From NCBI GenBank assembly GCA_008933025.1, contig WBXI01000019.1, positions 1 to 32,930 of the forward strand: 32,930 nucleotides of DNA, read 5' to 3'. Shown here piece by piece: positions 3,328 to 23,931 of this stretch. How positions within the stretch are numbered: the first letter of the stretch is position 1; each line of letters opens with the position of its first letter. The stretch is from Verrucomicrobiota bacterium. Lineage in GTDB: Bacteria; Verrucomicrobiota; Verrucomicrobiia; Limisphaerales; UBA9464. The notes under the pieces are model-generated. The model worked only from the letters and a program-made list of their open reading frames with translations, was not told where the DNA came from and did no database searches. A program made the translations under genes and the position numbers.

Positions 3328-6300
3328 TCAGTCCATTTCCATCACCGCGGCGCCGAACGTGAACCCACCGCCGAACGCCGCCAACCCCACGCGCCCTGCC
3401 CGGCCGGCCGCCGCCATTTCGGCGAGAACGATCGGGATGCTCGACGAGGAGGTGTTGCCGTAGCGCGCGACGTTGCTCACCACCCGGGATGCCGGGACCC
3501 CGGAACGTTGCTGGGCCGCCGCGATGATTCGTCCGTTGGCCTGGTGCGGCACGATCCAATCGAGGTCCGGCACCTTCCACCCGGCCTCGGCGCACGCCCG
3601 CTGCAGCATCGCGTTCATCTGGCGCACGGCGAGCGGGAACACCTTCACGCCGTGCATCTCCACCGGCGCGCAACCCGACGGCGTGATGCGGCCGAGATTC
3701 AGGATGCTGCCGTCCTCGCCCCGCGCCGAGAGCATGGGCCGACGCAACCGCATCCGGCACGAGGCCATGTTCGCCGCTCCCCGCACCACGGTCGCCGTCG
3801 CCGCGTCCCCGAACACGATCGCCGTGTCGAAATCGTTGGGATCGAGAAAGCGCGACATCGCCTCGGCCGTCACCACCAGCACGTTCGCCGCCGGCCGGGC
3901 CCGGCACAGGTCGTGGGCCACCTGCAACGCGTACAACCACCCGCTGCACGCCGCCAAAATGTCGGTGGCCTGCACGTCCTTCCCGGCGCCGGACCGCGAC
4001 AACTCGTGGTGCAACCGGCACGCCAGACTCGGACTGATCGACAAAGGCGTGCTCGTGCTCACGAGGATCGCGTCGAGATCCGCCAATCCCAATCCCGCCG
4101 TCGCCAACGCCTGCCGCGCGGCCGCCGTCGCCAGCGTCAGCACGGTCTCGTCGGGACCGCAGTAATGCCGCGTCTCGATTCCCGTTCGCTGCACGATGTC
4201 CGCCGGCGTCCGGCCCGGGAACCGCGCCGCCAATTCCTCGTTTTGCACCGTCACCGACCCGGTGACGAACGCGATTCCCGTCAAGCCGACGAGGTCGGCC
4301 GAATTCGAGGCGGGCCCCGCCTGCACCGAGGGATCGGACCGCGCGGCCACCGCCGCCGGGGTCCCGGCCCGGCGACGCACCTCCGGCTTCGGGTCGGACG
4401 GCACGCGGCGCACCACGGCCGGCGCGTTCGCATGCCCCGCGATCCGTGCCAAAGGCGTGCCCACCTTGACGGTCTCGCCCGGCGGCAGGAGCGACGCGAT
4501 GGTGCCTCCCACCGGCGCGCGCAGGTCGAAGGTCGCCTTGTCCGCCTCGCATTCCGCGAGCAAGTCCCCCGCGCGGATCGCATCGCCCACGCGGACTTTC
4601 CATTCCACCACCGTCACGTTCTGGTCGGCCGGACTCGATCCCACCGCCTCGAGGACGAACACGCCCGCCCCCTCGCCGATGGCCTCGGGCCACGTCACCT
4701 CGAGGTCGCAGAGTTCCGCCGCGGCGGCGAGGATCCGACGCAACGACGGCAACACTTCCAGTTGGTTCACGTAGTTGCACGGCACGTGGGTATCCGGTCG
4801 CGTCACCCGCCGCACCGCCACCGGCACGCCCGCGTGTTCCGCGATCGTCGCGACCACCTCCGCGCCGAAGCCGCCGGAGTGGTTGTCCTCGTGCACCACG
4901 ATCACCCGCCGGGCCCGCCGGGCCGCCGCCAGCACCGCCTCGGAATCCCATGGACTGATGGAACGCAGGTCCACGAGGCCGCAGGACACGCCCGCGGCGC
5001 GCATCGCCTCCGCCGCCCGCCGGCACAGGGGCACGGTCGCGCCCCAACTCACCAGCACCACCTCGTCGCCCTCCATCCCGATGGCCGCGTGTCCCGGCAC
5101 CTGCAGCAGTTTCCCCACGTCGCGCCGCGTCGCCACCGAGGCGTCGTTCAGCAGCATCTTCGGGTAGAGGAACAACGTCGGACGCCCCCCCGCCAACGCG
5201 CCCCGCAACAAGCCCGCCGCATCCTCCGCCGTGCTCGGCATCACCACGTCGAGTCCCGGAACATGGGCAAAGGTCGCCTCGAACGTCTGGGCGTGGAAGG
5301 GTCCCAACCCCGGCCGATACCCGCCGCAGGGAGCCAGCACCACCACCGGCGCGGTCCACCCGCCATCCGTCCGCCACCACATCGAGGCCAATTCGCTCGC
5401 GATCTGGTTGAACGCCAGCGGCAGGAAATCCGCGAACTGCACGAAAGCGACGGGCCGCCCCCCCGCCAACGCGCGGCCGATGCTCACGCCCACGATCGTG
5501 CTTTCCGTCAGGGCGGCATTCGTCACGCGCCCCGGGAAATCCCGGCTCAACCCGCGGGTCAACCCGAACACGTCGCCCTTCGGATCCTCGATGTCCTCGC
5601 CGTACAGGGTGACCCGGTCGTCCGCTGCCAATTGCTCGCGCAGGACGTCGCGCATCGCCTCCAGCATGGTGCGCGAACGCCCGTCGGGCGCGTCGCCCAC
5701 CCCCGCCGTCGTCGCGGGTCCGGTCCAAGGCGCGCGGGCGTCGTGATTGGCCGTCGGGTTGGGCGCCGCCAGCGCCGGTTCCACCGCCGCGCGGACGGCC
5801 CGATCCGCCTCCGCCGCGATGGCATCCAGTTCCGCTCCCGCGACCCCCGAGACGGCAAGGCGCGAGGCGAGGACCCCGATGGGATCCGAAGTCGCGCGCG
5901 CGCGCTCCAACTCGGATTCCCCGCGGTAGACCCGTTCGTCGTCGGCATTGGTGTGGTGGGTGAGGCGTTCGACGGCGACGACCGCGAGCAACGGTCCCTC
6001 GCCGGAGCGGACCCGACGGACGAGATCGCCGAAAGACCGGTGGCATTCCCAGGCATCGCGCCCGTCGAGGCGTTCGATCGGCATGCCGTGGAACTCGGAG
6101 GCGGGACCCGACGGACGATCGTAGAACGTCTTGGCGCGCGTGTGCGTGGAGATGGCAAGGCCATTGTCCTCGACCAGGAACAGGACGGGCAGGCAGGAGC
6201 GGACGGCCTCCGCGATGGCCTCGAGCACCTCGCCTTGCTGGGTGGTGCCATCGCCCATCGCGCACACGACGACGGGCATGGATCTCGAAGTTCCGGCACG

Positions 6301-6804
6301 ACCGCGTCGCGCCACCAATTCATGGGCGACGCCGACCGCCTGGAGCGCGTTGTTGCCCACGGGACCCACCAGACTGAGGACGTGGAGATCCGGCGCGCTG
6401 AGATGGGCGCTCATCTGCCGGCCGGCGGAATGCGACCGCGCGGTGCACAGGAGACTGTGAAAGAACTGAACCGGGGGAATGCCCCGGGCCAGCATCAGGG
6501 CCTTGTCGCGGTAGTGGAGGTGCAACCAGTCGTCCGAAACCAGATGCGCGGCCAGGGCCGCCACCGCCTCGTGGCCACTGCCGCCGACGTGGAAAAACGC
6601 CTCGCCACGATTGACGAGTTCCATTTCGACGCGGTCCAGATGCCGGGCCAACTGCATCCAACGCAACAACTCCAGCGCGCGCGGCAACTCGGGGCGCGGG
6701 ATGGATGGCGTGGGCACGTCGGACAACAGCGGTTCGGAACCGATTTCGCGGCCAGAATCTACGATGGGAGTCCCTTCCGGAACCGAGCCCAAGCCTTGAG
6801 GCAT
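3328..6804 (-). CDS. Fusion protein: 2-oxoacid dehydrogenase E1-alpha + E1-beta + lipoyl domain + 3-oxoacyl-ACP synthase III (FabH-like)
   Basis: 1158-aa ORF. E1-alpha (about aa 40-340) with TPP motif MGDGTTQQGEVLEAIAEAVRSCLPVLFLVEDN; E1-beta (about aa 378-700) YGEDIEDPKGDVFGLTRGL...; lipoyl domain (about aa 711-790) with ECEADKATFDLRAP, Lys756; KAS III (about aa 838-1158) with DILAACSGWLYAL (Cys953), VPHQANGRII (His1087), NVARYGNTSSSSIP (Asn1117), C-terminal FGGGFTFGAAVMEMD. Confidence 0.95.
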   Translation of the reverse strand: MPQGLGSVPEGTPIVDSGREIGSEPLLSDVPTPSIPRPELPRALELLRWMQLARHLDRVEMELVNRGEAFFHVGGSGHEAVAALAAHLVSDDWLHLHYRDKALMLARGIPPVQFFHSLLCTARSHSAGRQMSAHLSAPDLHVLSLVGPVGNNALQAVGVAHELVARRGRAGTSRSMPVVVCAMGDGTTQQGEVLEAIAEAVRSCLPVLFLVEDNGLAISTHTRAKTFYDRPSGPASEFHGMPIERLDGRDAWECHRSFGDLVRRVRSGEGPLLAVVAVERLTHHTNADDERVYRGESELERARATSDPIGVLASRLAVSGVAGAELDAIAAEADRAVRAAVEPALAAPNPTANHDARAPWTGPATTAGVGDAPDGRSRTMLEAMRDVLREQLAADDRVTLYGEDIEDPKGDVFGLTRGLSRDFPGRVTNAALTESTIVGVSIGRALAGGRPVAFVQFADFLPLAFNQIASELASMWWRTDGGWTAPVVVLAPCGGYRPGLGPFHAQTFEATFAHVPGLDVVMPSTAEDAAGLLRGALAGGRPTLFLYPKMLLNDASVATRRDVGKLLQVPGHAAIGMEGDEVVLVSWGATVPLCRRAAEAMRAAGVSCGLVDLRSISPWDSEAVLAAARRARRVIVVHEDNHSGGFGAEVVATIAEHAGVPVAVRRVTRPDTHVPCNYVNQLEVLPSLRRILAAAAELCDLEVTWPEAIGEGAGVFVLEAVGSSPADQNVTVVEWKVRVGDAIRAGDLLAECEADKATFDLRAPVGGTIASLLPPGETVKVGTPLARIAGHANAPAVVRRVPSDPKPEVRRRAGTPAAVAARSDPSVQAGPASNSADLVGLTGIAFVTGSVTVQNEELAARFPGRTPADIVQRTGIETRHYCGPDETVLTLATAAARQALATAGLGLADLDAILVSTSTPLSISPSLACRLHHELSRSGAGKDVQATDILAACSGWLYALQVAHDLCRARPAANVLVVTAEAMSRFLDPNDFDTAIVFGDAATATVVRGAANMASCRMRLRRPMLSARGEDGSILNLGRITPSGCAPVEMHGVKVFPLAVRQMNAMLQRACAEAGWKVPDLDWIVPHQANGRIIAAAQQRSGVPASRVVSNVARYGNTSSSSIPIVLAEMAAAGRAGRVGLAAFGGGFTFGAAVMEMD

Positions 6805-7006: not shown

Positions 7007-7391
7007 AGTACCAACTTCTTCAAATTGCCCGGCGACCGGCGACCTGTCAATGCGCCGGACAAAAACACCGGCCATCGGGAGCACGCGAACGCGGTCGTCG
7101 TCCACCAAACGGTCCCGATACAACCACCACGTTCGTCCGAGGCCAGCCCTGGCGAGTGTCCCGTCCCGTGTGGCGGCCGCATTCGCGGGGTCGGGCGACC
7201 TTCGGGAATCGGTGCCGGCGCACACCCGCGACACACACAAGCCGATCCGTCCGGAAGACTGGACCCAAGGTCCCGCCAAAAACCACGGAGGGACCCCGGA
7301 AGGGTGCCCACGCATCGAACCGGTGGACGAACGGTTTCCCCTGCCCGGTTTTCAATTTCACCCCGACGCCACGCACGGTAGGTTCGAACCG

Positions 7392-8762
7392 ATGCGCGCA
7401 CTGCTCCTTTCCGGCGGACGGATCATCGATCCCGCTTCCGGCCGCGACGAAACCGGCGACCTTCTGATACTCGACGGCCGGATCGCGACCGTGGGCCAAG
7501 ACGCCGCTTCGAAGGCACCCGCGGACGCGGAACGGATCGATTGCCGCGGCAAAGTCGTGTGCCCGGGCCTCGTCGACCTCCACGTCCACCTGCGCGAACC
7601 CGGGCAGTCCGCGAAGGAAACCATCGCCACCGGCGCGAATGCGGCGGCCCGCGGTGGATTCACCACCATCGTGTGCATGCCCAACACCGCGCCCTCCATC
7701 GACAGCGCGTCGACGGTGGCGCTGGTCCAGGAAAAGGCCCGCCAGGCGGTGGTCCGCGTGGAAATCACCGGCGCACTCTCGAAAGGAATCGCCGGCGAGG
7801 AATTGGCCCCGATCGGATCCCTCGCCCGCGCCGGGGTGGTGGCGCTCACCGACGACGGTCATTGCATCCAGAACAACGACCTGATGCGGCGGGCCCTGGA
7901 GTACGCGCGCCAATTCGGCCTGCCGGTGATGGACCACTGCCAGGACTATGGCTTGGTCACCGACGGCGTGATGCACGAGGGCTACTGGAGCACGGTGCTG
8001 GGCCTGCGCGGTTGGCCCTCGGCCGGCGAGGAAATGATCGTGGCCCGCAACATCCTGCTCGCCGAGCAGTCGGGCACCCACGTCCATTGCCAACACCTCA
8101 GTTCCGCCGGCAGCATCCGCCTGCTCCGCGAGGCACGTGCCCGCGGCGTTCCCATCTCGGGCGAGGCTTGTCCCCATCATTTCGTCCTCACCGACGCCTG
8201 CGTCGCCGGCAGCGACGAGTTCTGGAGCGCGGACGGACTCGATCTCGCCGCACGTTTCTTCGAGGGCCACCCGTTGCCCGCGTGGCCGTCCTACCATACC
8301 CATTGGAAAATGAACCCGCCGCTGCGTTCCGCCGCGGACCGGGCGGCCGTCCTCGATGCCTTGGTCGACGGCACGCTCGACATCATCTCCAGCGACCACG
8401 CGCCCCACACCGAGGCCGAGAAGGAGGTGGAATTCGACTATGCGCCCTTCGGGATCGTGGGGCTCGAGACCGAGCTGTCGCTGTCACTGATGCAACTGTT
8501 CCACACCGGACGCCTTCCGCTACGGGAACTCCTCGCCAAACTCACGTGGAACCCGGCGAAGATGCTCCGACTCGACCAGGGACGCGGCACGCTGTCGGTC
8601 GGTGCGGTCAGCGACGTCACCGTGATCGATCCGGACCGTCGCTGGACCTGCGATCGGCACGACACCGCCAGCAAATCGCGGAACAATCCTTTCCACCAAT
8701 GGCAACTGCGCGGCAAGGCGACGGCCACCATTGTTGGCGGACGGGTGGTCTGGAGGGATTAG
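7392..8762 (+). CDS. pyrC: Dihydroorotase (class I type)
   Basis: MRALLLSGGRIIDPASGRDETGDLLILDGRIATVG...KVVCPGLVDLHVHLREPGQSAKETIATGANAAARGGFTTIVCMPNTAP...HVHCQHLSSAGSIRLL...SSDHAPHT...GLETELSLSL; the ORF track's 7050 start is an upstream in-frame extension. Confidence 0.95.
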   Translation: MRALLLSGGRIIDPASGRDETGDLLILDGRIATVGQDAASKAPADAERIDCRGKVVCPGLVDLHVHLREPGQSAKETIATGANAAARGGFTTIVCMPNTAPSIDSASTVALVQEKARQAVVRVEITGALSKGIAGEELAPIGSLARAGVVALTDDGHCIQNNDLMRRALEYARQFGLPVMDHCQDYGLVTDGVMHEGYWSTVLGLRGWPSAGEEMIVARNILLAEQSGTHVHCQHLSSAGSIRLLREARARGVPISGEACPHHFVLTDACVAGSDEFWSADGLDLAARFFEGHPLPAWPSYHTHWKMNPPLRSAADRAAVLDALVDGTLDIISSDHAPHTEAEKEVEFDYAPFGIVGLETELSLSLMQLFHTGRLPLRELLAKLTWNPAKMLRLDQGRGTLSVGAVSDVTVIDPDRRWTCDRHDTASKSRNNPFHQWQLRGKATATIVGGRVVWRD

Positions 8763-16936: not shown

Positions 16937-19900
16937 CTACTCCGCGTGCACCTGGCGCGGTTGCATGAGGTAGACGACCAGATCCCGGGCCTCGCTCTCC
17001 GCCAATCCGTCCAGCAACCCGTCCGGCATGAGCGATTGATCCAGCGTGTCCAAGCGCGCGATCTCCCGCCGTTCCAACGTCACCCGCTCGCCCTGCGTCA
17101 CCAGTGTCACCGCCCTCGCGTTCGCGTCCCGCAGGAGTCCGGTCAACGTCCGGCCGTCCGCCAGCGTCACCACGGTTGCCCGGTAATCCGCCGGGACCAC
17201 CGCGCTGGGCGTCACGATGTTCTCCAACAGGTAGTCGAGGTTCGCGCGGCCCGATCCGGTGAGGTCGGGTCCCACCGTGCCCCCTTCGCCGAACAGTTGG
17301 TGGCAGGCGGCACAGGTCTTCCGGAACACGACGAGACCGCGGAGGGCACTCGCGCCCGCGAGTTTCGCCGGCGCGAGGCGCGCGCGCCACCGGTCCACCA
17401 GGACCTTCTGCTGGCCTTGGTCCACGCGGACGGATCCCCACACCTCCGACAAACGCCGCGCCAACCGCGGGTCGCCCAATCCCGCGATCTGCCGCGCGTG
17501 GAAGGCACTGACGTCCGCACGCGGCAATCGGCCCGCCGCGACGGCGTCGAGCAGCGCCGATGCCGCCGCGGGACGCGAGGCCATCGCGGCCAGCAAGGCC
17601 GGACGCTCCTCGATCCCCAGCCACGTGATCCGGGACGATGCCAACGCCACGGCATCCGGATCGTTCGTCTCCAGCAATGCCACCAACGCCGCCGTCCGCA
17701 GCGCGCCGTCGTCGACCAACCCCCGCAACAACGCCCCGAGTTGGTCCGCGCGCGCCTCCACCAACGCCCGCAACGCCGTCCGCCGCGCGACGGCATCGGC
17801 CTTCGGGTCCATGGCCAACGCCCGCAGCTCGCCGAGCGCCCGTCCATCGCCGAACACCGCGCCCAACCCCCGCACCCGGTCCCGCGTGTCCGCCGACGGC
17901 GATTGTCCCGCCAGCGCCGCGAACCGATCCCAAGCCCGGGGTGCCGCCGCGCGACGCCTTCCCCGCATCGCGTCGGACAATCCGGCCGCCACGTCCCCCT
18001 GCTCCGTCGCGCCCCGCTCCGTGGCCCACCGCAGGAGGCGGTCGACGGGCCCGGGCCGTGCATCGATTTCCTCCGCCAACCGGCGGGCGATGTGGCGCCG
18101 GAGCACCGGATGGACGGATGACGCCATCAATTCCAATGCGGCGTCCGGATCCGCCGCGACCACCGGTTCCAGACCCACCCATTCGAGCAACGGGAGGTTG
18201 TGGTCCGCCACGTCCTCGGCTCGCGCCACCAAACGCCGGCCGATCGCGAGCCGCGCCGCGAACGGGAGGCGCTGCAGGGACGACGCCACGTAAAGCCGGA
18301 CCAAGGCGGAACGATCGCGCTCGGCCAACCGCGCGAAACGTTCGACCACCTTCGTCGTCGTCGCCGCGTCGAGATCGGTCGCGCCGCCTTCCCCGCGGTC
18401 CGACACGCGGAAGTGTTCGGCCAGCAACCGGACCGCCCAGCTGCGCGCATGTTCGTCGTCGTCGCCCGTGCGGGCCACCAACCAATCGGGCGTCAACGTC
18501 CCGAGCGCGTTCAGCGCCCACAGCGCGCGAAGCGCGTCGGCGGGATTTGTCCGCCGCCGGTATTCGTCCCGGAGCGTGGCGGCCAAGGCCCAGCGGGTCC
18601 CCTCGTCCGGCTCCCGGCCGGCCAACTCCTGCCGCGCGTGGCGCGCCAACCAATCGTCGGGACCGAATGCGAGCGTCGCCAACCCGGCCGGCGGCAACTT
18701 CGCCAGATCCGGCAACCGCACCGGCGCCGGCTTGCCATGGGTCACCTTGTAGATCCGCCCGGAGTTGCGGTGGACACCGTCGTGGTCGTGGCACTCGCCG
18801 GTGTCGGACCAATCCGAGACAAACACCCCGCCGTCCGGCCCCGCGACCAGATCGAGCCCGCGAAACCACGGGTCCGGGACCGAGAGCAGGTCCGGAAGGT
18901 GTCGGGCGACATAGCCGGAACCGTCCCGTTCGATCCGCTCCCGGTTGATGCGGTGCCCGTGCAGGTTGAGCGTGAATGCCCGGCCACGGTACTCGGCCGG
19001 CCAGTTCCCGCCTTGGTAGATCATCAGGCCCGCGTGCGCGTGTCCGCCGCCCAGCGCGTCGCTCGTCGGCGCCGCCACCCCGCCCGCATCCGCCCGCGAC
19101 TTGGTCCAGCCCGCGCCGGTGTCGAAATGATGATGGTCGGCATGCTGCCCGATGAATCCGTAGGCATGCGGCATCACATCGTCCCCATGCATCCGCTGGA
19201 AATGCGCGCCGGGAATCGCGTGCCAGAAATGGCCGATCACCGTGTTGATGAAAAACGGTTCGCCCTCCGCGTTCCAGTCGAGACCCCACGGGTTCGTCGT
19301 CCCGTGACACACCGCCTCGAACACCCGGCGTCCGGGATGATACCGCCAGATGCCGCCGCGCAGTTCCACGCGCGCCGAATCGGGATCGCCCGGGCGTCCC
19401 ACCTTGGCGCCGCTCGAGATGCCGATGCGCCCCCACAGCCATCCATCCGGGCCCCACTTCAGACCGTTCGCAAACGTGTGGCGATTGCCGGTCGTCGTCG
19501 TGAAGCCATCCAGCAGGACTTCCGGCGGCCCGTCCGGCTTGTCGTCGCCGTCGTGGTCCGCGAGGAACAGGAGCGTGGGCGGGCACAGCGCGAACACGCC
19601 TCCCCGTCCCACCTCGACGCTCGTCAGTACCTTGCCCTCGTCCCAGAACACCTTGCGGGAGTCCGCCACGCCGTCGCCATCGGCATCCCCGAGCACCACG
19701 ATGCGGTCGTTGAGGTTGGTGGCATAGTTCACCTTGGCCTCGGCGTAGGTGTAATTCTCGGCCACCCAAAGCCGACCGCGCCCGTCGAAGGTCATCGAGA
19801 TCGGCTGCCGGACCATCGGTTCGGCGGCAAACACCGTGGCTTGGAATCCGGGGGGCATCTTGAATCCCGCCAAGGCCTCGGCGGGGGGCATCGGATGCGC

Positions 19901-20008
19901 CCCGGCTTTCTCCGAGTCGTAAGGTTCCGGAAACCCGGCGGCGACCGCGGCACGCACCGCCCACGCCAATGCGACCGCCACGGCTTGGATCCTCGGGACG
20001 GAGAACAT
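16937..20008 (-). CDS. PVC-type heme-binding CxxCH protein with N-terminal glucose/sorbosone-dehydrogenase-like propeller and HEAT-like repeats
   Basis: [90 protein letters not shown]...; C-terminal [63 protein letters not shown]. Start set at signal-peptide Met (20008) rather than 20335. Confidence 0.93.
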   Translation of the reverse strand: [1023 protein letters not shown]

Positions 20009-20183
20009 GCCGGCTTGCTTACCGCCCGACGCCGCGGGTCGCCAGCGCGAATCCACCGTCTTCCCCCGCGCCGGGCACGACGGGCCGGGCACCTTCCCTT
20101 GCGGCCGCGGCATCGGAATCCCGATCGGACGCCGTGGGAATATCGATGGACGCCCCGGCGGTTGCCTGCGGTAAAAGGAAGCC

Positions 20184-20657
20184 ATGCCAAACCGGAGCGA
20201 CCAGCAACAGCCAGGGAATGGGCCGGGACCGGACTCGCGCGGCGGCGACCGGAACCGCCGGGTGGGCTGGGCCTGTGCCGCGCTGGGGGCGCTCACCGGC
20301 TTGGTCATGGGCCTGTGGTCCTTCGACGGACCCATGCCGGTCCCCGGTTGGCTGGGCGACTACGGCTCCACGGCCCGGCGTTTGGCGCGGTTGGGCCACA
20401 TCGCCTTCTTCGGCATCGGCATCCTCAACCTGCTGTTGGCCCGGGAACTGGCTGTGACCGCGCTGGGGCGGCTTGGCCGGCGCGTGGCATCGACCGCGAT
20501 GAACCTTGGGAACGTGTTTCTCCCGTTGGTCCTTTTCGGTGCCGCCGTCTTCCCGCCGCTGAAATACCTCCTCCCGTTGCCGGCCGGTGCCGTGTTCCTG
20601 GCCCTCGTCCTCGCGGCCCTCGGTGCCGCGCCGACCCGGCATCCCGCCCGCGACTGA
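20184..20657 (+). CDS. Small polytopic membrane protein, function unknown
   Basis: 157 aa with hydrophobic segments VGWACAALGALTGLVMGLW, IAFFGIGILNLLLA, NVFLPLVLFGAAVFPPL, AGAVFLALVLAALGAA; 36 nt upstream of the acyl ligase on the same strand. Confidence 0.75.
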   Translation: MPNRSDQQQPGNGPGPDSRGGDRNRRVGWACAALGALTGLVMGLWSFDGPMPVPGWLGDYGSTARRLARLGHIAFFGIGILNLLLARELAVTALGRLGRRVASTAMNLGNVFLPLVLFGAAVFPPLKYLLPLPAGAVFLALVLAALGAAPTRHPARD

Positions 20658-20693: not shown

Positions 20694-22355
20694 ATGAAAA
20701 CCTTGTGCGACGTGCTGCGGCAATCGGCCGAAAGGAATCCGGACGCGCCGGCGGTGGGTTGGACCCGCGCGTCGGGCGGCGGCGGCTTCACCTACCGGGA
20801 ACTCCACGGAGCGATGCGGACGGGTGCCGAGGCATTGCGCCGGGCGGATCTGCGGCCCGGGGACAAAGTATTGCTCCACTTGGACGCCCGTCCCGAATGG
20901 GCGGCGGCGTTGTTCGCGATCCTCGAAGCGGGGGCGGTGGCGGTGCCCATTCCCGCCGAGACCCCGCCGGAAATCGTGGCCCGGGCCGCGGCTTTCGCGA
21001 ATGCGAGGGCCGCCATCCTCGGTGAACGGACCCAGCGTGCCGCCGCCGGGTTGCGCGCCGTCCGCTGCATCGACGTGGAACGACTGGTCCGGCCGACGGA
21101 ACCGGAAAACGGGATCGGCGAGTGCCCCTCGACAAGCCCCACGACGACGGACCCCGGCCAATCGGGGACGGGGGACCTTCGGGCGCGGGACGACGACAAC
21201 GCGCTGGCAATCCTCGCGTTCACCTCCGGCAGCACCGACCAACCGCGCGCCGTCGAACTCACCCACGCGAACATCCTCGCCGACCTTCGCGGCCTGCTCG
21301 CCTTGCGGGAGGCGCGGCCGGGCGACGCCTTCCTCTCCATGTTGCCCCCGGCACATCTCTTCGAGACGACCGCGGGATTGCTCGGCCCCATCGCCTGTGG
21401 CGCCCGCGTGGTGTACCCGGGGTCCATCCTCCCCAACCGTCTCGCCGACGCGCTGCGGGAAGAACACATCACCCACGCCCTCTGCGTGCCGGCCTTGCTG
21501 GACGCCCTGCACGCGGAGGTCGTCGACGGATTGGTCGAAAGCGGCCACGCCGACGCGGCCCGGCGCGGCCAAAGCACGGCCGAGACCGCGCGGCGGATCC
21601 GGGAAGAATTGACCCGGGAAGACCTCGGGAAACTCCGCGACGTGGCGCGCGCGCGGGTGGGCGGCTCGCTCCACACCCTGATCGTGGGCGGTGCCGCGAT
21701 CGACCCGGCCTGGACGGAAATCGCCCTCGCGTTGGAGGTCCGGCTCGAGGTGGGCTACGGGCTTACCGAGGCCGGTCCGGTCGTGAGCATGGGTCTCGCC
21801 GCGGAATGCCCGGCCGGTTCCGTCGGCCGCCCCTTGCCGGGCATATCGGTCCGCGTCGATGCCCACCGCGAGATCCAGGTCCGGGGTGCCAATGTCACGC
21901 GGGGATACCATCGTAATCCCGCCGCCACGGCCGCCGCGTTCGACGACGGTTGGCTCAGGACCGGGGACCGGGGCCATCTGGACGCGAACGGATTCCTTTT
22001 CGTCACGGGCCGCATCAAGGAGGCGATGGTCGCCGCCAACGGCGAGACCGTGTATCCGGAGGAAGCCGAGGCGTATTATGGCAGCCCGCTGTTCTCCGAA
22101 TTCTGCGTTGCCGGCCTGCGCGGCCCCAACGGGAACGACGTGCCGGCGCTGTTCGCGGTGCCGGCTTCCCCCGATGTCCGGCAGGAGGCGCTGCGGGAAG
22201 CCTATGAAAACCTCCGGGCACTCGCGCCGCCGCGGTTCCGCGTGCAGCGATTCGTCCGCCTGGACCAACCCCTTCCCCGCACCGCGACCGGCAAGGTGCG
22301 CCGGCGAACCCTGGCCGCCGCCTGCGGGGCCAAACTGCAGGTCTCCGAAACATGA
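20694..22355 (+). CDS. AMP-dependent acyl/aryl-CoA synthetase or acyl-ACP ligase (ANL superfamily)
   Basis: MKTLCDVLRQSAERNPDAPAVGW..., A3-like AILAFTSGSTDQPRAVELTHANILADL, LPPAHLFETTAGLLGPIACGARVVY, EVGYGLTEAGPVVSMG, LRTGDRGHLDANGFLFVTGRIKEAMVAANGETVYPEEAE, PLPRTATGKVRRRTLA. Confidence 0.93.
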   Translation: MKTLCDVLRQSAERNPDAPAVGWTRASGGGGFTYRELHGAMRTGAEALRRADLRPGDKVLLHLDARPEWAAALFAILEAGAVAVPIPAETPPEIVARAAAFANARAAILGERTQRAAAGLRAVRCIDVERLVRPTEPENGIGECPSTSPTTTDPGQSGTGDLRARDDDNALAILAFTSGSTDQPRAVELTHANILADLRGLLALREARPGDAFLSMLPPAHLFETTAGLLGPIACGARVVYPGSILPNRLADALREEHITHALCVPALLDALHAEVVDGLVESGHADAARRGQSTAETARRIREELTREDLGKLRDVARARVGGSLHTLIVGGAAIDPAWTEIALALEVRLEVGYGLTEAGPVVSMGLAAECPAGSVGRPLPGISVRVDAHREIQVRGANVTRGYHRNPAATAAAFDDGWLRTGDRGHLDANGFLFVTGRIKEAMVAANGETVYPEEAEAYYGSPLFSEFCVAGLRGPNGNDVPALFAVPASPDVRQEALREAYENLRALAPPRFRVQRFVRLDQPLPRTATGKVRRRTLAAACGAKLQVSET

Positions 22356-22612
22356 ATCCAAAGGAACTTGAATCCGAATTGCGGGCCCTTCTGGCGGGGC
22401 GATGCCGACTGGACGTCTCGGACTTCGATCCGGACGCCGATCTGGTCCGCGAACTGGGCTTGGACAGCCTGGCGCGGCTGCGGTTGCTGGCGGCCGTCGA
22501 GCATCGACTCGAGGTCCGGTTCGAGGACGCCCGACTCGGCGAGATCCGGACCCTGCGGCAGTTGGCGGGAGCGGTCGCGGAAGCCATCAAAACGAAAGGG
22601 GGTGCCTCGTGA
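22352..22612 (+). CDS. Acyl carrier protein
   Basis: 86 aa MNPKELESELRALLAGRCRLDVSDFDPDADLVRELGLDSLARLRLLAAVEHRLEVRFEDARLGEIRTLRQLAGAVAEAIKTKGGAS; GLDSL phosphopantetheine site; ATGA overlap with ligase stop. Confidence 0.93.
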   Translation: MNPKELESELRALLAGRCRLDVSDFDPDADLVRELGLDSLARLRLLAAVEHRLEVRFEDARLGEIRTLRQLAGAVAEAIKTKGGAS

Positions 22613-23931
22613 ACATCGGGTTGATTGCAATGAGTGGCGTGCGGGTTCGCACGCGGGAGCTGGCGGAGCTCGGCGTCACGCTGCCCGGGTTCGTGAACCG
22701 GGGGAAAGTGATCGCCTCGCTCCCCAGTCTGGGACTCCTCACCGTCGCGGCACTCACCCCGCCGGACATCGACGTGGCCTACCGGGAAATCGGCGAGACA
22801 CGGCCCGACGACCCGCTGGAGAGGTTCGATCTCGTGGGCATCTCCTCGTTCACGGCGCAGATCGACGAGGCCTATGCACTGGCGGACCGGTACCGGGCCG
22901 CCGGCGTGCCCGTGGTCTTGGGCGGGCTGCACGTGAGCCTCATGCCCGACGAGGCGGCCCAGCATGCGGACAGCATCGTCCTCAACGGTGCCGAGGGCGC
23001 TTGGCCGCGATTGGTGGAGGACTTCCGCCGGGGACGGCTCAAGCCCCGCTACGAGGGTCTCCGGTCCGGCGTCTTCCAGGCCCCGAACCATGCCTTCCCC
23101 CGCTTCGATCTGTTGCGCGGCCGGCCCTACAACCGCCTCACCGTCCAGACGTCGCGCGGTTGTCCCATGGACTGCGAGTTCTGCGCCGCCAGCATCCGCA
23201 TCACCTCGGGCTTCCAGCAAAAGCCCGTCGAGCGGGTCGTCGCGGAAATCAAGGCCGCCATGGCCGTCACCGACCATCCGTTCCTCGAACTGGCGGACGA
23301 CAACACCTTCGTCAACAAGCGGTGGGGGAAGGAATTCCTGCGGGCGATCACGCCGCTGGGCGTGAGTTGGTTCACCGAGACCGACATCTCGGTGGCCGAC
23401 GACGACGAGTTGCTGCGGTTGTTGGCCGAAAGCGGGTGCCGCCAGATCCTGGTGGGGCTCGAAAGCCCGACCGAGGACGGTCTGGCCCGGCTCGATCCCC
23501 ACGATTGGAAACGCCGGCACTGCGCCCGGTATCTGGAGGCGATCGCCAGGATCCAGTCGCACGGCGTCACCGTGAACGGCTGCTTCATCCTCGGGCTCGA
23601 CAGCCAGACGCCGGAGGTCTTCCCACGGGTGCGGGACTTCGTCCGCGAGTCCGGGCTGCTCGAGGTGCAGATCACCGTGATGACCCCGTTTCCCGGCACC
23701 CCGCTGTACCGGCGGCTCGCCGCGGAAGGACGGTTGCTGCAGCCGCGCTACTGGGATCGGTGCACTTTGTTCGACGTCAATTTCCGGCCAAAGCACATGA
23801 CCGTGTCCGAACTGGAATCGGGAATGCGCTGGCTGTTCGGCGAGATCTACAACGACGCCGAGTGCGCCCGGCGCCAGCGGCACTACATGGAGTTGGTCAA
23901 GGCGCGGATGCCACGCGACGGCGCGGACTGA
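22609..23931 (+). CDS. B12-binding-domain radical SAM protein
   Basis: GTG start in a GTGA overlap with the ACP stop. MNIGLIAMSGVRVRTRELAELGVTLPGFVNRGKVIASLPSLGLLTVAALTPPDIDVAYREI...VPVVLGGLHVSLMPDEAAQHADSIVLNGAEGAWP (B12-like domain), then TVQTSRGCPMDCEFCAASIRI (CxxxCxxC), GGRP-like VNGCFILGLDSQTPEVF. Confidence 0.92.
   Translation: MNIGLIAMSGVRVRTRELAELGVTLPGFVNRGKVIASLPSLGLLTVAALTPPDIDVAYREIGETRPDDPLERFDLVGISSFTAQIDEAYALADRYRAAGVPVVLGGLHVSLMPDEAAQHADSIVLNGAEGAWPRLVEDFRRGRLKPRYEGLRSGVFQAPNHAFPRFDLLRGRPYNRLTVQTSRGCPMDCEFCAASIRITSGFQQKPVERVVAEIKAAMAVTDHPFLELADDNTFVNKRWGKEFLRAITPLGVSWFTETDISVADDDELLRLLAESGCRQILVGLESPTEDGLARLDPHDWKRRHCARYLEAIARIQSHGVTVNGCFILGLDSQTPEVFPRVRDFVRESGLLEVQITVMTPFPGTPLYRRLAAEGRLLQPRYWDRCTLFDVNFRPKHMTVSELESGMRWLFGEIYNDAECARRQRHYMELVKARMPRDGAD

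Follow-up and report, generated by a model that had tools for sequence, protein, structure and literature searches.

Can one polypeptide take a 2-oxo acid through to a condensed starter unit, and if so, how does the acyl group reach the condensing enzyme? This question is raised by a gene in a stretch of 32,930 nucleotides (nt) from a Verrucomicrobiota bacterium (contig WBXI01000019.1), referred to as the window. The gene joins the E1 component of a 2-oxoacid dehydrogenase, dependent on thiamine diphosphate (TPP), to a lipoyl domain and a 3-oxoacyl-acyl carrier protein (ACP) synthase III (KAS III). From comparison of sequences we consider it fairly probable, at roughly 0.6, that the product is a single-chain starter-unit synthase whose KAS III is loaded from the lipoyl arm without free acyl-coenzyme A (acyl-CoA).

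The gene occupies positions 3328-6804 of the minus strand as an open reading frame (ORF) of 1158 amino acids (aa) with zero internal stops. The initial annotation was right about the uninterrupted frame but left the strand unstated; the plus-strand reading of the same positions is unrelated sequence. The presence of E1, lipoyl and KAS III parts in one chain was borne out by six Pfam domains in order, all above curated cut-offs. Three of them make up the E1, and the remainder are Biotin_lipoyl (730-788), ACP_syn_III (948-1010) and ACP_syn_III_C (1071-1156). The features of the gene are as follows.

3328..6804, minus strand: whole gene, E1-alpha/E1-beta/lipoyl/linker/KAS III, 1158 aa (ORF, Pfam, full-length homologues)
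5749..6660, minus strand: E1-alpha (E1_dh, residues 49-352) with the TPP motif G184-D-G...N214 (Pfam)
4765..5670, minus strand: E1-beta (Transket_pyr 379-553 and Transketolase_C 571-680; Pfam, conservation)
4435..4662, minus strand: lipoyl domain, about residues 715-790, with a conserved G722-x-x-P725-x-D727 at its start (Pfam, alignment, model)
4537..4539, minus strand: Lys756, predicted lipoylation site (invariant in 77/77 fusions)
4297..4434, minus strand: flexible linker rich in Ala, Arg and Pro, about residues 791-836 (Pfam, AlphaFold2 model)
3331..4296, minus strand: KAS III domain, residues 837-1158 (Pfam, structure matches, alignment)
3946..3948, minus strand: Cys953, the KAS III nucleophile, equivalent to Cys112 of E. 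coli FabH (alignment)
3544..3546, minus strand: His1087, equivalent to FabH His244 (alignment)
3454..3456, minus strand: Asn1117, equivalent to FabH Asn274 (alignment)
4198..4200, minus strand: Asp869, at the site of the CoA-stacking FabH Trp32 (alignment; role of Trp32 from PMC4606726)
3829..3831, minus strand: Phe992, at the site of the CoA-stacking FabH Arg151 (alignment; role of Arg151 from PMC4606726)

K756, C953, H1087 and N1117 had been numbered exactly, and each is invariant in an alignment of 33 full-length proteins, in which the linker is 37-73 residues long. An AlphaFold2 model of the fusion based on this alignment has a mean predicted local distance difference test (pLDDT) score of 86.5. 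Its N-terminus (1-29) and linker (819-835, with pLDDT <50) are disordered, the lipoyl domain consists mainly of strands, and other parts match the branched-chain E1-beta of Thermus (1um9) and FabH structures. A Pfam scan of the fusion protein gave no 2-oxoacid_dh (E2 catalytic), peripheral subunit-binding (PSBD/E3-binding) or PP-binding (ACP) domain. As the initial annotation held, the chain is without an E2 acyltransferase domain, and among the window ORFs scanned neither E2 nor E3 (dihydrolipoyl dehydrogenase) turned up.

Is the fusion real? Full-length homologues were found as 78 ORFs (72 without duplicates) among loci from the source and other genomes, and the assembly chimera that had been named as a refuting case is thereby excluded. 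A whole-genome search of relatives recovered the protein at full length from most genera of the source family, and from further families of the same order. The survey of prevalence and lineage that had been asked for gave 74 loci in the GTDB collection, from Verrucomicrobiota, Planctomycetota, Spirochaetota, Gammaproteobacteria and the Rhizobium tropici/rhizogenes group. Counted by phylum, at least four contain the intact fusion. It is carried by about 36 of 390 genomes in Verrucomicrobiota, 3 of 274 in Gammaproteobacteria, 2 of 297 in Planctomycetota, 7 of 248 in Spirochaetota (by KAS profile, one of these in broken frames) and 1 of 200 sampled in Rhizobiaceae. The fusion is patchy yet persistent across bacteria. 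No match to it was found in the plasmid collection at E 1e-100. Broken copies are present at L221:5823-9315 (genome G1464, three overlapping frames) and L084:9872-13341 (two overlapping frames). Their breaks lie within domains or close to them and are probably due to frameshifts or decay. The three frames of G1464 were considered as a split operon and rejected, since the breaks fall inside domains and are frameshift-like. Two gammaproteobacterial candidates for a natural split operon (G141 and G219) both proved to be fusions, G141 being truncated by a contig end.

The mechanism we propose has the following steps. A 2-oxo acid, which is most likely bulky, as branched-chain acids are, would be decarboxylated by E1, with reductive acylation of the lipoyl arm. 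Swinging within its own chain or across to the dimer partner, the acylated arm would reach a KAS III and pass the acyl group to Cys953. KAS III, serving as acceptor instead of E2 and needing no free acyl-CoA, would then condense it with malonyl-ACP to 3-oxoacyl-ACP and CO2, and the reduced arm would be re-oxidised by an E3 encoded elsewhere. The product may feed the synthesis of fatty acids or lipids, and in the R. tropici group perhaps that of a membrane lipid.

Evidence on the donor comes from an alignment of the KAS domains of 77 fusions with E. coli FabH (MG1655) and 17 KAS III genes that were counted as free-standing. The FabH residues Trp32 and Arg151 sandwich the adenine of CoA, which also touches Thr28 (PMC4606726). 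None of the 77 fusions retains any of these three clamp residues. Trp32 is replaced by Asp (38), Glu (38) or Met (1), Arg151 by Phe (61), Pro (13), Tyr (2) or Leu (1), and Thr28 by Arg, Trp, Met and others. The loss is unchanged when 31 closely related Rhizobium proteins are left out (46/46), and all three residues are kept in 16 of the 17 controls; the sole exception (L104) runs off a contig end and is possibly part of a longer protein. The fusion domain has the thiolase fold with its Cys-His-Asn triad, and Cys112, His244, Asn274, Gly209 and Arg249 (FabH numbering) are kept in 77/77 fusions. Arg249 we take to be an ACP-contact residue of FabH. Phe87, presumably an acyl-pocket residue there, is Thr, Ser or Ile in the fusions. 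Fusion KAS domains and FabH separate in a tree with support 100/99; against NCBIfam, the KAS part scores 269.5 with the PRK09352 subfamily model (cut-off 249) and 238.4 with TIGR00747 fabH (cut-off 292.1). Two further observations concern this domain. L068 and L164 form a divergent fusion subclade with the His motif PHPG versus PHQA. At L214:3522-4553 a KAS III without the clamp (Arg, Glu and His at 28, 32 and 151) runs off the contig end, and no fusion was found in its genome.

What stands in the place of KAS III in related proteins? A tree was built from the E1 and lipoyl columns only (54 rows; its deep joins involve long branches). The fusions form one clade (100/100), and the adjacent group (99/95) consists of single-chain E1-alpha/beta-lipoyl-E2 proteins from other Verrucomicrobiota (L194-L205, about 1010-1080 aa, plus one longer ORF) and the E1 gene L166. 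Nested within the fusion clade beside L211 (98/95) is L168:111-3353 (G084 contig 43), which ends in an E2 with an HRVVNG motif and has no KAS III. Since the sister family has E2 at this place, and L168 has it within the clade, KAS III takes the position of E2, the acyl acceptor. Clamp loss, the E2 of the sister family and the single in-clade swap together support direct lipoyl-to-KAS III transfer, so that the bypass of E2 and acyl-CoA suggested by the initial annotation may be regarded as partly supported. In several tails of L194-L205 the E2 motif reads HRVVNG or HKVVNG, Asn standing at the position usual for Asp. At L166:3-6266 (G036 contig 48) the E1-alpha/beta gene lies directly before a polyketide synthase (PKS) with lipoyl, E2, ACP, ketosynthase (KS) and ketoreductase (KR) domains, an arrangement that is a possible loading module.

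The TPP-dependent E1 is present with its alpha and beta parts. N214 of E1-alpha and H504 of E1-beta are invariant, and D185 is kept in 75/77 fusions, the other two having Glu. The nearest solved E1-beta is the Thermus branched-chain enzyme, 39 percent identical in a structure alignment. An acyl group of the branched-chain type is plausible, a branched or bulky group being favoured by this match together with the replacement of Phe87.

Is the chain self-contained, as had been suggested? Re-oxidation of dihydrolipoyl requires E3, so the chain is not fully self-contained. The source genome encodes an E2-E3 pair on contig C269, where E3 scores above cut-off and adjoins the free E2, and another E1 on contig C51; the E3 partner of the fusion is presumably the shared genomic one. 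At least one separate KAS III gene is present in each of nine carrier genomes examined, and the fusion is therefore an added route and not the housekeeping FabH.

For the function of the product, the gene neighbourhood is informative in Rhizobium. The fusion gene follows a same-strand FA_hydroxylase gene in 31/31 loci, with a gap of about 190-350 nt in 29. The R. tropici copy of this hydroxylase is OlsE (NCBIfam, above cut-off), and a homologue of OlsC (the reference gene being above the NCBIfam OlsC cut-off) lies downstream on the opposite strand in 29/31. OlsC hydroxylates ornithine lipids and is tied to acid tolerance in CIAT899 (PMC5936775), a laboratory strain of R. tropici that lies outside the loci covered here. 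This olsE/olsC neighbourhood suggests a membrane-lipid role in Rhizobium. The combined proposal, in which a single polypeptide forms starters with neither CoA nor E2 and provides the R. tropici group with an unusual acyl chain for its ornithine lipids or other lipids of the membrane, with a bearing on acid tolerance and symbiosis, is put forward tentatively, the odds being slightly against it.

Several observations weigh against loading from the lipoyl arm, a branched substrate or a role in lipids. Position 403, the canonical Glu of E1-beta, is Gln in 48/77 fusions, many of them from Rhizobium; Gln occurs there in some sister proteins too, and the neighbouring E406 is almost invariant. The E1 profile models matched are generic, despite the branched-chain enzyme being the nearest solved E1-beta. 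Clamp loss could instead reflect an acyl-ACP donor rather than lipoyl, and the E2 swap in L168 is a single case from one metagenome assembly. The Rhizobium arrangement is probably one inherited, ancestral event and not 31 independent ones, and most carriers outside Rhizobium have no lipid operon around the gene, where no conserved operon was seen and the neighbours are generic, apart from a BMC shell-protein gene in four Pirellulaceae loci.

Alternative explanations can be judged by the same evidence. KAS III might act as an acyltransferase only, moving the acyl group from lipoyl to ACP or another nucleophile with no condensation. The E2 that it replaces is itself an acyltransferase, and KAS III-like acyltransferases of antibiotic pathways are known, e.g. 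ChlB3 (PMC9573744). Since Cys-His-Asn is intact in 77/77 fusions, as decarboxylative condensation would need, we regard this as unlikely. Much the same holds for a second possibility, marginally less probable, in which E1 uses pyruvate or a ketose phosphate and yields an acetyl or hydroxyacetyl starter, as in NapB/NapD. Transketolase and pyruvate dehydrogenase (PDH) models also match, and the L166 E1, grouped with the sister family, adjoins the lipoyl-E2-ACP-KS PKS; on the other side stand the best solved match, to the Thermus branched-chain E1-beta at 39 percent, and the replacement of Phe87 by Thr or Ser, which should enlarge the pocket and make it a poor fit for acetyl. The mechanism stays the same in this case and only the substrate differs.

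A conventional route, by which a free E2 acting in trans makes acyl-CoA for KAS III and the fusion merely joins genes, would find its E2 in the E2-E3 pair elsewhere in the genome. Every fusion has its clamp residues replaced, however, the chain has no PSBD, and the single-chain sister family has its own E2; we rate this route as rather improbable. A decaying fusion of unrelated genes, or the chimera already refuted, would account for the few broken relatives (G1464, i.e. L221, and L084) and yet leave unexplained the invariance of the catalytic residues in 78 full-length ORFs across phyla and the clade support of 100/100, and its probability is negligible. We therefore retain loading of KAS III from the lipoyl arm as the preferred explanation.

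Other genes near the fusion were also recorded. In four Pirellulaceae loci (L029, L038, L040, L041) homologous genes lie 3' of the fusion on the same strand, with a gap of 6 nt in L038; the copy scanned has two BMC (microcompartment shell) domains. In L027 a small protein encoded upstream was considered as an ACP and rejected, having no Pfam match. In the window itself, 7053-8759 (plus strand) holds a dihydroorotase-like ORF of 569 aa, which exceeds the model length and whose true start may be further in. At 20694-23928 (plus strand) an AMP-binding enzyme precedes a B12-binding radical SAM protein that carries DUF4070, and 16940-20335 (minus strand) encodes a heme-binding CxxCH protein of the PVC type, named for Planctomycetota/Verrucomicrobiota, with DUF7133.

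If the proposed mechanism is true, two textbook hand-offs, from E2 to CoA and from acyl-CoA to FabH, become one intramolecular swinging-arm transfer. Keto acids would enter the synthesis of fatty acids or polyketides by a new way that needs no pool of free acyl-CoA, and the engineering of branched starters would gain a module ready for use. There would also be a testable role for a conserved gene adjoining the ornithine-lipid hydroxylase genes of bean-nodulating rhizobia, a tractable host in which hydroxylated ornithine lipids are tied to acid tolerance (PMC5936775).

How does the fusion compare with known systems? No description of an E1-lipoyl-KAS III chain, or of acyl transfer from a lipoyl arm to a KAS III, was found in the open-access papers searched, which mostly exclude subscription titles; for the chain this agrees with the initial annotation, which knew of no characterised example. 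PDH and branched-chain 2-oxoacid dehydrogenase (BCKDH) complexes share the TPP-dependent E1 and the lipoyl domain with its Lys, and the fusion is without their E2 catalytic domain (HxxxDG) and PSBD. Branched-chain E1 enzymes (Thermus 1um9, human 1dtw) have the same E1-alpha and E1-beta folds, TPP motif and catalytic His pair; the fusion differs in joining alpha and beta with lipoyl and KAS III, and in an E1-beta position varying between Glu and Gln. With FabH the fusion KAS III has in common the fold, the Cys-His-Asn triad and Arg249, but it replaces the CoA-binding T28, W32 and R151 as well as Phe87. The sister proteins L194-L205 share the order E1-alpha, E1-beta, lipoyl and C-terminal acyl acceptor, but their acceptor is an E2 acyltransferase (compared via L168, about 32-38 percent identical).

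In NapB/NapD-type systems, E1 and a lipoyl-E2-ACP protein load a carrier protein. Here too E1 and lipoyl machinery would be diverted toward a carrier protein; NapB/NapD rely for this on an ACP and the catalytic domain of an E2, and the fusion has KAS III for E2 and no ACP domain. Photorhabdus BkdABC, compared by description only, likewise uses 2-oxoacid dehydrogenase machinery for starter formation and one condensation. Its product is described as a 5-methyl-3-oxohexanoyl thioester and the system is needed for iso-fatty acids (PMC4578411, PMC8248439). BkdABC is a three-gene operon with an ACP domain in BkdB (PMC4578411, PMC4901931), unlike the single chain of the fusion, and gives by analogy a precedent, acting in trans, for a 3-oxoacyl thioester made by a Bkd system. 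With both the diversion of E1/lipoyl machinery and Bkd-linked condensation already known, the new part would be the transfer from lipoyl to KAS III.

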